Below, piece by piece: positions 8,577 through 54,961 of a DNA stretch of 64,000 bases; position 1 is the stretch's first letter, and each line of letters starts with the position of its first letter. Source of the DNA: Cladochytrium replicatum (Eukaryota; Chytridiomycota; Chytridiomycetes; Cladochytriales; Cladochytriaceae); assembly GCA_025526935.1 (NCBI GenBank), contig JAHLKD010000031.1, positions 372,001 to 436,000 of the forward strand. Reading direction: 5' to 3'. The translations under genes and the position numbers were made by a program. The notes below the pieces were generated by a model, which had not been told where the DNA came from, did no database searches, and worked only from the letters and a program-made list of their open reading frames with translations.

Positions 8577-8688
8577 GCGGCTTAGGATGATTTGAATACT
8601 GATAGAATTCATATTCGCATTAACATCACAAAGCGACTGGCCAATGTATTCACTTTTAACATATTGCTCGCGTCAAAAATGCAGCAAG

Positions 8689-11600
8689 CTATTCTTTGCT
8701 GTTGATTGAGCTGCTTGACTTTCTGATACTTTTGGCGGCTTCTGCTGCTGCTGCCGCTTTCACTTCCGTGGGAAGACCAGAGAGCGAATTTCCAACAGGT
8801 GTTCGCGCAATCCGCTCATGGGTCTGGAACGCGGTATCAAGTTCTTGTTGCAGCCCAGCGTCGAGAATAACTGGAACTGGGTTCAGTTTCCTTTTGGCTG
8901 GCTTTTCTGGAGGATGAGGAACATCATTTTTAATTATGTTGGGAAGGGGCGAAGAGCTGTCATCTTCCGGATGATGAAGCGGATGGCGATGATCATACGC
9001 TCCCACAGCGGTGTTCTGCCGAGACACTCGGTGGGTGGGTCGGAATTCTCCACTTCCAATTGTGGTGCGTGGTGTGCTGACGAAGAATTCTTCGTCTTCG
9101 TTTTCCTCGTGGTTCAGGGATCGTTTGGCCTGATTTTTAATCAGAATAAGTTGATAATCAAGAAACAGACGTAGCTACGACTGCAGATCACTGACCATGG
9201 ATGAACAGTGAATCTCTTCTGATTGTTTGGTGTGAGAATCGTCTGTAAGATAGACGGCTTGAAGAAGTTCTATGCCTTCAAGCTCATCACCCTGATCAAG
9301 ATCAGATTCATCGTCTTCCATGGGCTGATCCACATCCGACTGCTTATACGATTAGCGTCGTTTAAATAAAACCTTTGGTTTTAGCTCACCTCATCGTCAG
9401 CATCTTGATCTGCCTCTTCCCCGTCTTCAGATAATTCATCGAGGTGTGAACTTTTTGCTTTGGGAGTCAAGGTTAATTTGACGCAAGAAACCAGGACATA
9501 GACGTACAGCTGTTGAGCTCCTCCATTACATATTCAAGTTGATTCCCAAGCCCATCGCTGCTGGTTTTTCTCATATAGTCCAGCATGTCCTCCATTCCCA
9601 TTTCCCGAGCTTCCTCCCTGAATTTTGGCTCTGAAAACAGACTGAAAAGTGCCCCATTGACGTAGGTTTTAATCTTCGTTATGGTTTCATTAATCAGAAG
9701 CGTGATCGTGGAGAAACTTTACTACCTGGACGCTTTCGTGCTCCATTAATTCATTTAAGATTGCAAGCGTCCGTTTCTTGCTCTTTAGGCACTGCCGCTT
9801 TCCTTCTGTCCTCAAGCAGAGATTCATCAGAAGCGCCGTTGCATACTCAATAGTTCGCTCAGATAACCCGTCCGTGTTCTCCAGCAAGTCATGAAGGAAG
9901 TCCAACACATTCATTGAGTTCAAGATCGATTGAACTCTCCTCCTGAAATTGTTTGGATTATATTTGACATAGGTTTTGTTTTCGCTCTCTGGCCGTCTGA
10001 TCTTACCTGAGGCTCAACTTCTGGAAAGCTCCCAAGATGTTTTCTCGAATTGGCGGCGTGCATTTCTCTACATTTAGCAAAAACTGCACCATTGCCGTAA
10101 CCAAAGATTTGGATGTCTCCTGGCTCCTTCCGACGGATACATACTCCCGCCCATCTGCACCAAGCGAAAAGGCGTTGAGAAAGCGTACAAGCTCGACCTT
10201 TGTTGCATCGTCTCCATCGTCCAGGATCCGTTCCGCTACGGAATTCTATGAAAAACAAGATTAATACTAACGCTGTTTTGGTGGGCACAATACGTACCTG
10301 GTTACACTGCAGGATATCCTGCCTAGCAAACTTGTGTATAATGCGATGCCGGTTTGCAGATCTTCTTGGCATCAAGATCAACTGAAATTGCATGAGTGCC
10401 TGATTTCCCTTCATGCAATACTGGATTCTGAACCTACCTTTCTCAGTGCTCTGAGAACCATGCCAGGTCGCTTCTTTGCTCTTGTTGCAACATCCTTCCT
10501 CAGCTTTGCGTAATCCAAACCCGACGAAATAGATAAGGCAACTTTGTCTGATTCGCTGTTCGATCTCGCCAATGCACTTTCCGGCCTTTGGAGAAACCCT
10601 TGGCATGTCGATGGTGCGGAGCTGTGAGGAAGGGGTTGAACATAGTGCTCCTGTGGAAGCTGGCGTTGTGGTGCGGAATTGGGACCGGTCTTGGCTACAG
10701 AGAGTGAACTCCTATTTGATCTATTTGATAGAGATGGTTAAGGGAAAACTCCTGCTTTATGAGAAGGTCTACCTTGAATTGTTTTGGTTCTCGTCACGAT
10801 TTAGATCCATGGCGAATTCCTATTTGCCCTCCGTATGTCAAAATTCGTCATAATAAAAGAAGCAAGTCAGAAAACGCTAACCATTTGTGGAGCTCTTTTG
10901 AGGAATGCAAGCTTGTCACACACGGTTGAGAGGTACTGTACAGATATCTGCAAGATCTCATCCTTCAATATTCAGGTGTATTTAGATATTTTCCTACCTT
11001 CGCGCCACTTATGGAGGCTCCTAGTGCATGCACCAGCTCCTGTGCAACAGAGAGGAGGTTTTGGTAATCATTCTAGCTCAGCAGATATTAGCTCCAGGTA
11101 AATCAACTCGCAATTCTTCAATGAACCTGAACAGCGCGGTGTTTGCGCATAATGTCTCGGTCGTGAAGCTCGAGTTCCTGGCATTTGCGCTTCATCATGG
11201 TCAGCTGCTTCTCGCTTCCTGGTTTTGAGCTCAGAACGTGTTTGTTCATTCGAAACAATCCTAACTTACGTTGGGCGTCCTCTACAGGCCGAAGGTCCTG
11301 CAAGTACACATTTCTGGTAAATTGTGAAGGTTCATAGATTTCACTGGTCCAAAACTCACTGTTTGTGAGACAATCTGGATAAGCTGAGGCCGAATATTTT
11401 TCTTCAAGGCACTGGAAAGAAAATGCGACAGGCGATCTTCGACATCCATCACCCACCCGTCCGTAAAGACGTCACGAAACGTGGGGTGATCCATTGGATT
11501 CGGTACATAAGGCAGCGCATAGAACGACAGGAATTGGGTCGTCTTGCAGAGATCCGCTCCTCGTGTCTCCAAGAATGCTTTGAACGAATCCATAGCGATC

Positions 11601-12134
11601 GAGGAATCCCGTTTCTGGTGTTCAGCAAAAATTTATGAGCGACGTTCAGAAGATCGTTCCGTGTCAGTTGCCTGTGCCATTCTCTGATCGACGTAACTGT
11701 GGACAGGAAACACAGCAAAATAGATGCTTAATGTGAACTCGAGCTTTGAGTACACTGGATCACTTAGACGGACGGATGGTGGGAAATGCTCGTCCCAAAG
11801 CGCAAAAAATGCATCCCGATCACCTTCATTAAAAGCAAGAAGGAAGCGTTCCTTCAGGGTAATGTGAGATCAACAAATAAATTCGAGCTAAAATATTGTA
11901 TCGACCTGTACTTCGCGTAGTCGCTCTGCATTTCTGTCTTCCTCCTCGTTCTTCTCGACGCCTACATTGTCTTTGCGGTGCGTTTCGCGATCAAACGCGT
12001 GGACTGTTTCACGGTAATCTGTGAAGAGTAGATACTGATATGATTTACTCAATTTTGCTGATCAGCAGTTGCTTCAATCGTACCTCGCGAACTAGCTCGT
12101 TGATTTCACTTCGCTTTCTTGGATCAAGAGCCAT
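8689..12134 (-). CDS. ARMC9: ARMC9 homologue (LisH/armadillo ciliary base protein)
   Basis: A multi-exon gene on the minus strand starts at ATG 12134 with an N-terminus reading RSEINELVRE, followed by YLLFTDYRETVHAF, a LisH-like start. Recognisable ARMC9 blocks follow: FLLAFNEGDRDAFFALWDEH, then FKAFLETRGADLCKTTQF, then FYALPYVPNPMDHPTFRDVF, a coiled-coil stretch, and armadillo repeats including TIEYATALLMNLCLRTEGKR and REEAREMGMEDMLDYMRK. The C-terminus is acidic and then low-complexity, ending at 8689. In animals and protists ARMC9 sits at the ciliary base and is a Joubert-syndrome gene; it is expected only in organisms that build cilia or flagella. I did not fix every splice junction, so the exact protein length is not given. 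A single in-frame TAA near 11640 is removed by an intron ending just before KRDSSIAMDSF. Confidence 0.88.
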
Positions 12135-12326
12135 GGATTATGTTCACACAAGCCACCAACTTCGGACATTTTATTGTCAGGGATAAAAAAAATACCCTTA
12201 GACTAAGCATAATAGAGAATTCCAAAAGACCAACGAGGTTCAAGTTTCAAAAACCGAAAAGAAATTTCCTTTCCAAAAAGAAATCATTCAGATCCAAGTG
12301 ACTCAGCTTCACGCAACGCTTCAACT

Positions 12327-14124
12327 TTAGTAGGCGTGGGCGTTGAGGGTGGTTGGAGACGCAACAGCATCTTCGTAGCGCAGCTCAAAACCGTCCAAAT
12401 CGACCGCTTTGCCCCACTCACGCTTGACCGACAATTTCATGCGGCGGTTCATGATGCGGCCAAGTTCCCCCTTGATTCCGTCGATGTAGTCGTCAATGGG
12501 AAGGTCATTTGCGTCGGTTCTGGAAAAAATTTAAAAATTATTCAGACGCACGAAAGAATTAGAAGTTGCTCGCATCAGGCTCACCCTGCAAAGACATAGA
12601 GTGAGGACGGGAAAGGCAAGGAAAAAGATCAAATTCTAATCAAAGCACCCGCTACTTTAACTTATCATACCGAAGGGGTTCTTTAGAGCACTTAGCATTG
12701 ATTAAATGAGATGAAAAGAATAAGAACTAACCTCGATTTCACCGGCAATCGCTTCCATCGCAACAAGGACCGCACCGCCCAATGAGACGACGGGTATGGT
12801 AACCCAGCCCAAAACAGGCAACACCTGGAAAGGCAAGCTGAGCGTGTACAAGAAGAGAGCCTGCTTGATGAATGTTCCGTAAGCGATAGGGATGGGAGTC
12901 TTGATTCGCTCGAAGTAGCTGAAAGTTTCGACCATTCCGGCGACGCATCCGTTCATGCTTCCCTGGGCGGACCCGTCAATCAGGTTCTTCGCCTTCATCT
13001 CACTAACGACCCATCAGTTCAAATTCAAGGAGAGCCATGTTACACCTTACGCAACGTAGGTACCAAGGTGGAAGGAAATCTCCAGGGGAATGCTGATGGT
13101 GCCAGACTTGGGAGGGTTAGGGTTCTCAGGAGAGAAATCCTGCTTCGGAATTAAAAATGTGTCTGAATGCAAAGCTTCTAAATTCCTACCTGAACGTGCT
13201 CCAAGTAGGGCCACAAATCTACAAAATAAGCATGCGATGAGAAAATATGTGCAGGGATACGTTTGCACGATAATTACCGTCGAACTCCCATCCGGGTTCA
13301 TTGCGGAGGTAGTGCTTGCAAGCAGAAGAGAACGCAAGAAGCAAGTTCATAGCACCCTTCTTGTACTCAAAGTCTTCCTTAGAGATCTTGCTACCATCGA
13401 CCGGCTCAACATGCAGCCTTAATCAAACGTAATGGATAAATAGGCGTGAACTGGTACTATGCATGGTACTTACCAAATGAGACGTGCAAAGTTTCGAATT
13501 TGGACGACGAGCTGTGCCCAGAGACGGCGACCTTCCCAGAAGCGATCGTCTATAGATTGAGAGTAGATGTTGAGCATGCATCAATCGTCAGGTAGGATAT
13601 TCAACTAACACGCAGTGTTGGTTCTACAAAACCCGAACAAATGGTTTGTCAGAGCAATGCGAAAGCGTTGTCAGCAATGCCTCTCACCGGAAGACCAAAA
13701 GGTAGCCGAATGCAACTCCCATGATCTATAAAGGAACGACGGCTTAAGAACAAAGGTTTTTGGTTGAATCGCATTTAACCAACCGTGATGAACATTGTTG
13801 AGTTCGGGACCCACTTCAACAGATCGGTGGTCTTGTAAATAGTGGTGACAATGGTTGCCCAGACAAAGAGGACACAGAAGGGAAGCACGACAGCGGGAAT
13901 GGTGCTATTAAAGATACACTTCAGAGCTTGTTTCCACCAATGCACAGAAAAATAGCGTACCTTCCGCGAAGCACAAGCAAATCATACCATGGCTTGTAGT
14001 TCCTGTGCGTGAAAAAGGTGATCCGACGCTTTTCAAGTTTCTCCTGTCGCTGGTACTCCAGGTACGAGCGGGTGTTCACGCCAGACACGCCGTTCAGCAG
14101 CGGAGTTGATTCTGAGGTGGACAT
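12327..14124 (-). CDS. Bestrophin-like anion channel with microexons
   Basis: Twelve exons rebuild 382 residues in one frame: 14124-13961, 13904-13784, 13725-13688, 13623-13610, 13549-13474, 13417-13278, 13218-13190, 13142-13051, 13002-12732, 12680-12671, 12585 and 12519-12327. Bestrophin (RFP-TM) landmarks are LLVFRTNTAYDRFWEGR, joined from three exons, then LWAQLVVQIRNFARLIW, several membrane segments (residues about 57-100 and 265-310), and ENPFG followed by TDANDLPIDDYI. Fungal and bacterial members are chloride-permeable channels. The glycine codon of NPFG is assembled from exons of 10, 1 and 193 nt; without the one-base exon the C-terminal 64 codons are out of frame. The start could also be an in-frame ATG at 14211. 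It is divergent from the SH3 gene across 374 bp. Confidence 0.82.
12585..12585 (-). other. Inferred one-nucleotide exon of the bestrophin-like gene
   Basis: On the minus strand the sequence reads ctttgcag, then G, then gtgagcc. The AG is preceded by a pyrimidine-rich tract and the GT opens a good donor. Introns of 85 nt (12670-12586) and 65 nt (12584-12520) flank it. Inserting this single G restores the frame of the C-terminal exon and completes the NPFG glycine as GGA. The alternative is one 151-nt intron plus a missing base in the assembly. Confidence 0.6.
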
Positions 14125-14498
14125 GAGTAATGTGTTTGTTGGCCTGGAAACAGAGGGTTTTGATGGGTGGAAAGACACCGCAATTTGGACTTTTTGGGAG
14201 ATCGATCCCAAGCCGCGCGTTTATTAGTTACGAAAGGTATAACATGGCGAAGACAGCATTGGATGTTTACATCAGTTGAGAAGAAAAAAAGCCCGAAAAT
14301 AAAGCAAATGAAGAAGCAACTATATCTTGCCCTGTGCTCTTGCCTCATTTCCTTTTGTTGCAAAAACGCCAACACGTTAACTTCCATTTTCAGGCATATG
14401 AATAACGCGCCCGTGTCTTCCGCCGCACCTCCGCCGCAGGCAGGCCCGCTTTGATCACTAGAATCCCAACCGACAGACTCAAAATCTGAAGCGAACAC

Positions 14499-50516: not shown

Positions 50517-51446
50517 GTTCTGTCCCACCAGGACACTTTCTCAACTCATTGACGGTACTTCAGTGATCTCTATCAAGTACAACTAACTTCTCTATCGATG
50601 TTACTAGCAATACGATTCTGTCCACCCGGACAATTTCCAAGAAGTCACAACAGAAGTTCTGTAACAAACAATTTCTACCACAACAGACCTCGAGATCTGT
50701 GCTTTCTGTGCACCTGGACACTTAGAGTCAGTAACGTTCCAGCCACACCACAGCAAAAACGGACACCGCCTTTGTTAAACCACACCACAGCAAAAACGGA
50801 CGCCGCCTTTGTTAAACCAAAACGTAAGGCTGCGTCCGACGCAAGCCAAAGGCTGGTGGACCGTCATCCGCTTGACACACGGAAGCGAAGTCTGCCAGCC
50901 CCCCGAATTTTAGAGGCGTCCAGGGAGGGGAACAGCATTCAGGACAAACGCAGATGTATAGAAGGACATGGTGGCAACAACAGCGCTCGAGAGCCTGGCT
51001 TCACATCGTCTTCCAATGACTCCAGCGAGTTAGACCTGGCTTCTCAGCGTGCTCCAGAGCTTCCTGCCAACGTTAGTTTTGCTGACTCTTCAGTGCGACA
51101 GGAGCCCGCAGCTGGATCGGTTCAACCATCAATGCTTTCGTCAGACGCAGATGTAGATAGCATGTCGGACTGTAGAGGTGGTCGAGGCGGCATAGCGAAG
51201 GATTACTATAAGGTCGATAATGGTCTGAGAACATGTTTGGTTGCGAAATGCAAGTGGAGCCAGAAGGTCGATAAGACGGGATCAACAAAAAACTTTCTCC
51301 GGCATCTGAAAAACCACCATGGAAGTATTGCCAGGTTGCTTTGACTGTTGGACACTGTCCCCAAGGGACAACAGACATTGAATTTTGGCTCGCTGGAGAA
51401 GGAGCAAGATTTTGTGTTCAATCCAGAAGTAGCTTCTCGCTGTGAG
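50517..51446 (+). mobile_element. Truncated hAT transposon copy (5' end and BED zinc finger only)
   Basis: This segment is a close copy of 61228-62260, the 5' part of the hAT element described below. It includes one copy of the roughly 97-bp upstream repeat, the N-terminal coding region and the BED-type finger (CLVAKCKWSQ...HLKNHH). Compared with the other copy, the presumed start ATG reads ACG, a segment of about 38 nt around the start is duplicated, and GGA has become TGA just after the finger (about 51342). Similarity stops near 51446, so the catalytic domain is absent. It can only be an immobile relic unless an intact element acts on it. Confidence 0.8.
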
Positions 51447-52732
51447 GTAATAGGATGACTCAAAAGGCTTCAACGGAGATGGAGAAAAGGCGTTATTGGC
51501 AGGGTCCATCTCCACTGTGCTCCAACCGTCGCAAGATCATCGCGCAAGGGCTCATCATCGCAAGTCCGCATGCATGTATCTTGGTGCACTTCACAACAAC
51601 AGTATCTTACTACCACACAGAACCTCAACCTTCATCATCTGTCTCGCACTCGAGCACATACAGCCCCGGCACTACAAAACTCACTTCCTCCTCGTCCTCG
51701 TCTGTGTTTGAGCCGCGTCACCAGCCTTCAACAAGCACAGCAGAATGTCCCCAAGCAATTCCAAGGACTCTTAGACCCTGATAGAGCGCCGTTGGGTCTG
51801 GGGAACGGAAGAACCAACATTGGTTCGTGAGAAGTCTGATTTGATATTGAGGGACAGGTATTCAAACAATCAGCTTCCGAACCTGCACGCTTATAGAGCC
51901 ATTACCTGCGCTACTGAAAGAAAGACTGTTCCAGCAATGAGTGCTGCAGAAACTGTCATTCTCAGAGAATCACAACGCATTTCAACCGGAAATCAAGAAA
52001 TCATTTTCTACTTACAAAACAATCAGTGGAAGGAGAGTCACGACGTCTGGGAGAGCACCGTGCTTGTGAAAACATCAAATCATCTGTGAGTTAAGAGGAA
52101 GTGGAAAAGTACCCCAAATCTTCCTTCAAAAACTGTCACATTCCGACAAACCCTCAGATAATCACCAAAAAGATCATTGAAACCCGGCACAAAGTCACTT
52201 GGGGACCTGGAAAATGCAGAGAGTCAAATATAAAGCAAAGCCGGCTAACTCACTTCAGAGAATCGAAGACGTTTTTCTCCATTCTCAAAAACAATTGCCA
52301 ACTTTTGAAGATGAATATGAAGTAATCTGTCCACTTTGCGAAAAACTTTATTTCTACGAACGTGGAATCAAGGGAGCCAGTGGAAAACAACAAAGATAAG
52401 GCAACTGTTGAAGTGCAACAAGCGACTGGAGCTATATTATTCCGAAAACGATGTCAGCTGAATCGGAGCAGAGTTCAAGCCTCTCACTCCACCTCCGTAT
52501 CGCCTCCCAGTGCAGAAAAGAAAAGCAGACCTACCAACCGAACCACCAGTCCAATTACACTCCGAAAGCACCTTCCCGTTTGCTGTCTCGAAGCCAATAT
52601 CTGACACTTTTGAACGACGGATTTTGTTATATCATGAGAACTACGTCGCTTTGCCCATTACAATTTTTAAAGCATCACTCATAGCGTCGACAAGAAAAAA
52701 GCTCATGGGATTATCAATGTTCAAGGTATTGT
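51447..52732. other. Accessory DNA with short unassigned frames
   Basis: Several plus-strand frames of 60-110 codons follow each other (for example 51820-52089, 52199-52399, 52510-52845). Some read like protein (EVICPLCEKLYFYERGIKG has a C-x-x-C pair), but they cannot be joined into a convincing gene. A relic of a second mobile element is possible. Confidence 0.35.
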
Positions 52733-53396
52733 TTATTTTGTTGTCGTTTTCTCTGTCGCGCCGGCCACTGCCGCAGCTGCACTGCCAAGAGCACGGTCTT
52801 TACCACCCATGTGGAAAAACTCGATGTAACGGCCCATCTGAATGAGTTGTCCCGTTTCGTTTGCGGCATGGCATGCAAACAAAAGCATGTTGCGCGGCTG
52901 AACCCTCCATGCGAATCGCATGAAAACGCCGGAGTAAAGAATGAGAGCTTGATCAGGGGAAAAATTCACAATTTGGTAAATTAAAGTTCTACAGATTCAA
53001 TCGATTTATCTTCCTTACCGGTTGTCATTGTTGGGCTGATGAATTCTGGGCTCTTTTTCATGTCTGCAAGGGCGGCCAACGGCAGTCCCCAGTTTGCCAC
53101 TGCGAAATTGATGTTAAAACTTAAGTACTAATGTGGAATTTGACCTACCCGGCCCCCAAAAGTGCTAAAGTTGATGGGATAAATATCACTACTATTTAAG
53201 GCATATTTATTCCATTCTTTTCAAACTTACCGTGCTATTAACCAGTAATCAACACGTCCCAAGAGGATATCAAAGAAACACTGTCGATTAGTGAGGGCAA
53301 TTTTTGCTTGTCCTTTATCTCAAACCTCATGAGGTAGGACCTGAACTCCTTCGATGCCAGGTATTGCGAAAGCTTTTGCGTGGGTTGGGATGCCAT
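52733..53396 (-). CDS. MPC1: Mitochondrial pyruvate carrier subunit 1
   Basis: Five exons, 53396-53326, 53234-53231, 53164-53149, 53099-53019 and 52947-52733, total 387 nt and encode 128 residues. The product reads [104 protein letters not shown] and the FMRFAW.VQPRN block are MPC1 hallmarks. MPC1 pairs with MPC2 in the mitochondrial inner membrane to import pyruvate. The four-base second exon supplies the end of Ser24 and all of Thr25; without it the conserved segment is out of frame. The C-terminal 35 residues are alanine/threonine-rich and poorly conserved. It is head to head with HDHD5 across 66 bp. Confidence 0.92.
53231..53234 (-). other. Inferred four-nucleotide exon of MPC1
   Basis: On the minus strand the sequence is ttaatag, CACG, gtaagt: a good acceptor, four bases and a near-perfect donor. 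Introns of 91 nt and 66 nt flank it. Joining AG + CACG + CAC gives Ser-Thr-His, exactly the residues expected before FWGPVANWG in MPC1. Skipping it gives a frameshift. Confidence 0.75.
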
Positions 53397-53462
53397 TGCG
53401 GTTCTTGCGAATGTGGGTGGATCCTGGACGGACGTGTGAAGATCGCTACCAAGCCCCAAAAG
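53397..53462. promoter_or_regulatory. 66-bp divergent promoter between MPC1 and HDHD5
   Basis: Only 66 bp lie between the two start codons, so the 5' UTRs and core promoter elements must fit in or overlap this interval or extend into the opposite coding sequence. Both products are expected in mitochondria. No TATA box is visible. Confidence 0.6.
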
Positions 53463-54961
53463 ATGCGTTGTTGCCCCAGTTCGCTGATCCGATCCCGCAA
53501 TCGTGGCCCATCGGCAATATTCTCCAAGCTCGGTGCGAGCGGGCTCGTATGGCAGTTTGGGAATGATGCATTTCAGAATCGATACGTACAAAGCTTCGCG
53601 AAAGCTCAAAAGCCGAACAGTATGTGGAAAGCACTTTGACAGCTGCCATATCGCCTAATTCCTTTCAGTTGGAGTCGCGTTTGACATCGGTGAGGAGCTT
53701 GATGCCGTCTCCAACCCAAAGTGCTGAAACATCGGTGGATAGATGGGGTCCTTATCAAAGGAAAACGGTCACTCCCAGCGGGGCAGCGTGCCATCGCAAT
53801 GCTAAAGGAGCGCAACATTCCATTCATATTCCTCACTAACGGGGGAGGAGTAACCGAAGCAGCTAAAGCGGAACAGCTGGAAAAGCTTCTCGGATCCACG
53901 TTTGATCCAAAGCAAGTAGTTTTATCACACTCGCCGATGCACACACTCGTTGAGAAGTACGCCGATCGCCCCGTCTTGCTTCTGGGACGAGACTCTTGCA
54001 AGGTGAAGTGTTACTGGGAATAACTGGATGCAAAGTTGTTCAAAGTTATAAATTCAGGAGGCCGCACTAAAGTATGGTTTCCGAAAACCCGTGCTCGCGA
54101 ACGAATTTGTCGCGTGGAATCCGTCCATGAGTCCATTCTATGCACTTCCTGAAGGTGTCTCTGCTTCACCGTACCTGGTAGACCCTATCGCTGCAATTTT
54201 GGCCTTCCATGACTCTCGCGAGTGGGGTCGAGATCTCCAGATCGTTTGTGACTTGCTACGCTCCAATGAAGGCGTTCCAGGGACCCTGAATATCGGCGGG
54301 AAACAGGCTCTGCCAATTTATTTCAGCAACCCCGATTTCGTTTGGAGCAACGAATATCCCATATCGCGTTTTGCTCAAGGAGCGTTTCGGATCTGTCTTG
54401 AGTCACTATACCATGTGAGTAAAGGAAAAGATTTCGGTTTTTATGATCAACCTCAGGAGTCAGGAGCTAACTGGGAATCGCCTTCAATATACATCATTTG
54501 GAAAGCCCATGCGAGCAACCTATGAGTAAGGGGTTGATTTGTAATTGGCATTATGTCTGAATCGGATGCTTTTGCCTTGGCCTATAGGTTTGGTGCAAAT
54601 GCGCTCGAATCTTACGCTGCGTCCATTGGTGCTCCACAGTCCGGATTTCGGAAGGTTTATGCCATCGGAGGTAGGCTCAATTTTCGTTCCATTTCCTTCT
54701 CCATAGTCTAATTTTCTCCTTTGTGGTAAGATAACCCAGCGGCTGGTTAGTTATATTAAACACGCTTGAGAGGGAGATTCCTGAATTCGTTCCTACCAAG
54801 ATGTTGCCGGGGCCAATGGCTATGGCTGGACCAGCATCTTAGTGAAAACGGGCGTTTGGGATCCCGAATTGCATGGTGAAACGGGCCACGGCGCGACGTA
54901 TGTTGTTGAGGACGTTGAAGATGGTGTAAAACTTTTGTTGGACATTGAAGAATTGCTTTGA
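53463..54961 (+). CDS. HDHD5: HDHD5/CECR5-type HAD-superfamily hydrolase, mitochondrial
   Basis: Eight exons (53463-53619, 53669-53689, 53743-54002, 54058-54414, 54464-54525, 54588-54670, 54731-54745, 54801-54961) total 1116 nt and 371 residues. The first 30 residues are Arg/Ser-rich without acids, typical of a mitochondrial presequence. The HAD motif I is FDIDGVLIKG, assembled from two exons, followed by LPAGQRAIAMLKERNIPF, IFLTNGGGVTE, a long cap domain, TSFGKPMRATYEFGANAL, and motif IV AIGDNPAADVAGANGYGW, assembled across a 15-nt exon. The family (CECR5, fungal YKR070W-type proteins) is a mitochondrial HAD phosphatase of unclear substrate. Exons of 21 and 15 nt are notable. A short duplication, ATTGCTTTGA twice, spans the stop. 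Confidence 0.88.

Follow-up and report, generated by a model that had tools for sequence, protein, structure and literature searches.

A chloride-channel-like gene of Cladochytrium replicatum, a chytrid from the order Cladochytriales (Chytridiomycota), very probably contains an exon that is one letter long, and so does a second copy of the gene at the same place. Judged from the sequence, and at a probability of roughly 0.9, position 12585 of the window (the whole stretch of 64,000 nucleotides analysed here) would be a constitutive one-nucleotide spliceosomal exon between two U2-type introns, located inside the glycine codon of the bestrophin signature NPFGxDxNDL. The one-nucleotide exon is the reading of the first-pass annotation, and it is supported by a paralog of the same structure, by an enumeration of splice structures and by ten paralogs whose motif is free of introns, which serve as length markers.

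The encoded protein belongs to the Pfam family Bestrophin_2 (PF25539; E 6.1e-62, 210.2 bits against a curated cut-off of 27). A six-frame search of the organism's own genome with PF01062 gave no match, and 14 controls were equally silent. In our gene model (Table 1) the exons measure, in order, 164, 121, 38, 14, 76, 140, 29, 89, 271, 10, 1, and 193 nt. Together they amount to 1146 nt, that is 381 codons and a stop; the 1149 nt and 383 codons of the first-pass annotation were 3 nt too many.

Table 1. Features of the bestrophin-like gene in the window, counted from its first letter.
Feature	Position	Strand	Description	Remark
Bestrophin-like gene	12327..14124	-	start to stop codon; 12 exons, 381 aa	Pfam PF25539 Bestrophin_2
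Exon 9	12732..13002	-	271 nt; GEIE at end, phase 0	gene model
Intron 9	12681..12731	-	51 nt; GTTAGT...AAG	gene model
Exon 10	12671..12680	-	10-nt micro-exon AACCCCTTCG; Asn-Pro-Phe and first base of Gly	same letters in the C2 paralog
Intron 10	12586..12670	-	85 nt; GTATGA...TTTGCAG	82 nt in the paralog
Exon 11 (putative)	12585	-	single nucleotide G; middle base of Gly codon GGA (NPFG)	sole enumerated motif-keeping GT-AG solution; paralog G000:C2:44590
Intron 11	12520..12584	-	65 nt; GTGAGC...TTTTCCAG	58 nt in the paralog
Exon 12	12327..12519	-	193 nt; begins with third base of Gly, ends with stop	gene model

The borders of exons 9, 10 and 12 agree with those placed earlier, and it is their phase that poses the problem. 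Frame and conserved protein demand exactly one base between exons 10 and 12. If this base is left out, the frame is lost after NPF and translation ends at a new stop, preceded by 340 codons in the window gene and by 339 in the paralog, which bears out the earlier claim that one extra base is needed before 12519. The G at 12585 (minus-strand context TTTGCAG/G/GTGAGC) has a usable AG acceptor before it and a usable GT donor after it, with enough space for the two introns, and the same holds for the second copy. With the G included the codon becomes GGA, the protein reads IENPFGTDANDLPIDDY, and, as had been proposed, each base of the codon comes from a different exon of the twelve-exon model.

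The second copy was found by a DNA search of the genome, which returned one other match (C2:44377-44871). The corresponding gene model (G000:C2:43067-44841) has the same twelve exon lengths as the window gene, those of 10 and 1 nt included. Its 10-nt exon is identical, and its one-nucleotide exon stands in the context CATAG/G/GTAAGG, aligned with that of the window gene; spliced in this way, the C2 copy would read TTCGGAACC. The two proteins agree at 368 of 382 positions (stop counted), while the coding sequences show 108 differences over 1143 positions, of which 91 fall on third positions (NG86: dN 0.018, dS 0.479, dN/dS about 0.04). In the interiors of introns 1-9 only 221 of 375 aligned positions are identical (59%). 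Thus the copies have existed long enough for their introns to diverge, and selection acts on the pair. Despite this drift AGGGT is intact in both copies, and the change in the donor still gives GTRAG. By our arithmetic, which is an after-the-fact estimate, a site that arose by chance in one copy would keep all seven fixed bases at 59% identity in about 2-3% of cases. The one-base exon is therefore kept in a relative with diverged introns, this being one relative, the C2 paralog of the same genome.

The gene lies within a duplicated collinear block, window positions 8688-14172 matching G000:C2:43018-46116 and 51428-53617 at 76% and 73% DNA identity, with about 5.3 kb of extra sequence interrupting the C2 side. 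A segmental or a genome duplication is a possible source of this block.

How long the motif should be can be read from relatives. Ten further bestrophin genes of the genome (on C16, C21, C61, and C97) carry PFGxDxND with the same spacing and without an intron inside, two of them with a stop codon nearby; two short protein matches, at C16:554.9 kb and C21:120.0 kb, stand outside these ten. Among the best 120 of 5702 relatives, PFGxDxND is present in 108, and the spacing is kept in 116. These 116 include eight in which a residue is changed or the end is cut (five with PFNxDxND, P0116 with PFQxDxND, P0095 with Y for D, and P0040, which is cut off), so that the glycine is not invariant and is replaced by Asn or Gln in some of the relatives listed. 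Two of the 120 break the spacing, namely P0055 and the deposited paralog P0001, and a further two are without the motif. Solved bestrophin structures show DPFGTAANDL and NPFGTDCN with the same spacing (two alignments among 22 matches).

Two side observations concern these relatives. P0055, from Lobulomyces angularis, has NPFGYVENSDL in place of PFGxDxND and is possibly another chytrid gene model that misses a micro-exon at the motif. The bestrophin copies at G000:C61:194104-194463 and C21:63688-64008 have a stop inside or soon after the matched stretch; pseudogenes or unrecognised introns are both possible.

We then enumerated the splice structures open to the region. With the start of exon 10 fixed, the one-intron set comprised introns of at least 35 nt from GT or GC to AG, with the acceptor at most 60 nt into exon 12. 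The two-intron set comprised GT-AG introns of at least 40 nt each around a middle exon of at most 60 nt; these two sets, with everything upstream of exon 10 kept as modelled, make up the enumeration. One-intron solutions that are in frame and stop-free number zero in the window copy, where the alternative raised earlier, a single 151-nt intron with another in-frame junction, is accordingly absent among GT/GC-AG structures. In the paralog there are nine, and none of the nine keeps PFGxDxNDL. Two-intron GT-AG solutions number four in the window copy and eight in the paralog, and exactly one in each keeps the motif, namely the one with the one-nucleotide exon. Hence, within the enumerated set, the canonical solution with the family motif is unique and is the same in both copies: the AG/G/GT first noticed at 12585 is there, it is the only such solution, and the paralog has its equivalent.

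How often such a site occurs by chance was estimated after the site had been seen, and the following figures are to be read in this light. YAGGGTRAG occurs twice in about 149 kb of genome on both strands, and the bare AGGGT 194 times. Among genome stretches of 146 nt, 0.04% contain YAGGGTRAG at least 45 nt from either end, and 3.4% contain AGGGT in such a position. In first-order Markov sequences derived from 18 other introns the corresponding counts are 2 and 188 in 20,000.

Intron lengths point in the same direction. Among 26 control introns of three genes, whose borders were placed by hand with GT-AG ends, lengths range from 46 to 76 nt (median 55.5), whereas an undivided intron would measure 151 nt in the window gene and 141 nt in its paralog. 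The sub-introns of 85, 65, 82, and 58 nt are nearer to the control range, with intron 10 (85 and 82 nt) exceeding all 26 controls. Donors of the four sub-introns are ordinary, matching CAG/GTAAGT at 5 or 6 of 9 positions against a control median of 6. Branch candidates of the form YTNAY are present in all four, three of them at 39-43 nt from the acceptor, and the controls score alike. Two self-made gene finders are given little weight here. The stricter one was trained on 157 kb without either gene; its output comprised only 24 genes and 15 introns, with neither test gene among them. The other returned the exons 271-10-1-193 but began the gene inside exon 2, with the first two exons wrong; it had been seeded with the 18 other introns of both genes and the coding sequence of the paralog and was retrained on its own output.

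It is quite unlikely, in our view, that the region is instead one intron, 151 nt long in the window copy and 141 nt long in the C2 copy, that has a non-canonical end, GT-CA/G or G/TA-AG. The flanks permit this in both copies (CG/GTATG on the left, CA/GAACC or TA/GAACC on the right). Because exon 10 is followed by a G (CG/GT) and intron 11 ends in a G before AACC, a GT-CA or a TA-AG intron would yield the same mRNA, TTCG-G-AACC. A mature cDNA with GGA fits both readings equally and is thus necessary, yet not sufficient, for the one-nucleotide exon. However, such an intron would require a rare terminus in both copies, while all 26 controls fit GT-AG, an argument that is partly circular since their borders were set by hand. 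It would also be about double the longest control intron and would turn the YAGGGTRAG at the aligned site of both copies, found in 0.04% of 146-mers, into a coincidence.

For the paralog, the main rival is the deposited model. The public annotation of the C2 copy is without the one-nucleotide exon: it uses an exon-10 donor 4 nt further downstream and a single intron, which inserts an isoleucine (NPFG-I-TDAND). The deposited protein P0001 (C. replicatum, 96% identical to the window protein) carries this isoleucine as residue 319 and otherwise equals our model of the paralog exactly. In the paralog this structure has GT-AG ends and keeps the frame, and its donor GTTACT matches CAG/GTAAGT at 5 of 9 positions, no worse than the donors of introns 10 and 11 in the window. 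Against it, this donor has a C at the fifth intron position, where the controls have G in 23 of 26 and C in none. The insertion also breaks the spacing kept by the ten paralogs with an intron-free motif and by 116 of the 120 relatives listed. The donor is moreover absent from the window copy (GTAT/GATAAG), so that the model is inapplicable to the window gene. We consider it highly improbable as an account of the splicing, and the isoleucine of P0001 is probably an annotation artefact of the one-nucleotide exon.

A flanking exon that lacks a base, whether through an error of assembly or sequencing or because the gene is broken, would pose the same phase problem, but this is hardly credible given that a second, clearly diverged copy has an equal problem with an equal solution and that purifying selection is strong (dN/dS about 0.04).

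Two special forms of splicing were also considered. A zero-length recursive splice site (ratchet point) is AG/GT with no base retained, and here dropping the base breaks the frame. In stwintrons, an internal intron interrupts the donor, the branch site or the acceptor of an external intron, according to the available parts of the reports (PMC5639578, PMC9024468). They resemble the chytrid case in that two introns abut at one site in fungal genes and consecutive splicing is required. They differ from it in that neither chytrid intron has its GT or AG interrupted and in that one base of exon would stay in the mRNA. By eye, neither intron lies inside the other, either removal leaves the GT and AG of the other complete, and no donor-interrupted stwintron parse of the region was found.

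Under the one-nucleotide exon reading, two ordinary U2-type introns, of 85 and 65 nt in the window copy and of 82 and 58 nt in the C2 copy, would lie one base apart within the glycine codon. Introns 10 and 11 would be removed sequentially and in an intron-defined manner, since the two splice sites overlap too closely for simultaneous use. U1 on the donor of intron 11 would cover the AG of intron 10, so that both introns would be hard to assemble on at once. Whichever intron was removed, the GT and AG of the other would be intact, and joining exon 10, the G and exon 12 would give GGA; skipping of the G would lead to a frameshift and a truncated anion-channel-like protein. That the protein functions as a channel is something we infer, as are the actual splicing and the order of removal. 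For the APC11 gene, intron definition and consecutive removal were proposed by Guo and Liu, who, in the available part of their paper, cite potato invertase as a case in which the second intron leaves first (PMC4674806). By analogy one might guess that intron 11 perhaps leaves first somewhat more often.

One-base exons are rare, and their precedents are a handful of plant genes and a single Fusarium gene; the comparisons that follow draw on the available parts of the papers. In Arabidopsis, Guo and Liu (2015, PMC4674806) proved the single-nucleotide exon of APC11 by exchanging its base and following the substitution in the cDNA. It resembles the putative chytrid exon in being constitutive and needed for the frame, whereas its base is an A and the substitution removes the cDNA ambiguity that the chytrid case retains. 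The first-pass annotation had named APC11 as a plant gene of this kind; VPS55 is a second, and 1-nt micro-exons of both genes occur across land plants with RNA-seq and RT-PCR support (PMC8831610). Likenesses to the chytrid gene are that these conserved exons were missed in annotations, that the VPS55 donor GTRAGT is conserved and that intronless APC11 copies exist; differences are the plant host and the RNA-seq and RT-PCR evidence.

That no fungal one-nucleotide exon was known, as had been stated, is overtaken by CYP621A of Fusarium species (February 2026), for which junction-spanning reads were found (Nelson and Syed, 2026, PMC12940212). The likeness is close: the exon is again AG/G/GT, its G supplies the second letter of a glycine codon within a conserved motif, an intronless relative serves as length marker, automatic annotation missed the exon, and the intron stretch measures 139 nt in F. 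graminearum against 151 and 141 nt in the chytrid copies. In contrast, CYP621A belongs to a P450 family of Ascomycota, whereas the two chytrid copies are paralogs within a single genome, and in them the one-base exon comes after one of 10 nt. There the exon is supported by junction reads, while the chytrid exon is predicted from sequence. A one-base exon is also described or mentioned for placozoan mitochondrial cox1 (PMC5436844), and the term appears in papers on fungal mitochondrial introns (PMC12308204, PMC8208691). No earlier report of a chytrid one-base exon was found in the literature searched, most subscription papers being outside its scope.

As to origin, a more diverged bestrophin paralog (G000:C41:68216-68012, locus L041) splits the motif as GAGAATC / CTTT / TGGATACGAT / TGGAACGAC; its introns there measure 55, 76, and 60 nt, which leaves exons of 4 nt (CTTT) and 10 nt (TGGATACGAT). 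Counted from the first base of Asn, its introns lie at 4, 8, and 18, and those of the window pair at 0, 10, and 11. Over the three genes, introns thus occupy six distinct positions in a span of 19 nt, and the exons left between them measure 10, 1, 4, and 10 nt. One might tentatively, and with more doubt than conviction, regard the codons of E-N-P-F-G-x-D as a hot spot of intron gain in the chytrid, where the one-nucleotide exon would have arisen by a second intron inserting beside the first and not by base loss and rescue. For Fusarium, the available part of the report proposes such a rescue, in which a base was lost and a cryptic AGGGT was then adopted (PMC12940212), and by analogy this origin is possible for the chytrid exon as well. 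When the full 151-nt stretch served as query in a DNA search, it matched only itself; since the search missed the introns of the paralog too, it argues only weakly against a repeated, introner-like element in this stretch.

If confirmed, the finding would place one-base exons in a third nuclear lineage, after plants and an ascomycete, and the base, flanked by AG and GT, would again stand in the middle of a glycine codon, which suggests a repeatable route. It would also provide a search signature: a phase mismatch together with AGGGT in an intron roughly double the usual length, within a conserved motif. Public gene models can misread such motifs, as the deposited protein of the paralog suggests. 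For C. replicatum itself, the diverged pair of paralogs, together with relatives in the same genome whose motif is without introns, would constitute a test bed for overlapping 3' and 5' splice sites.
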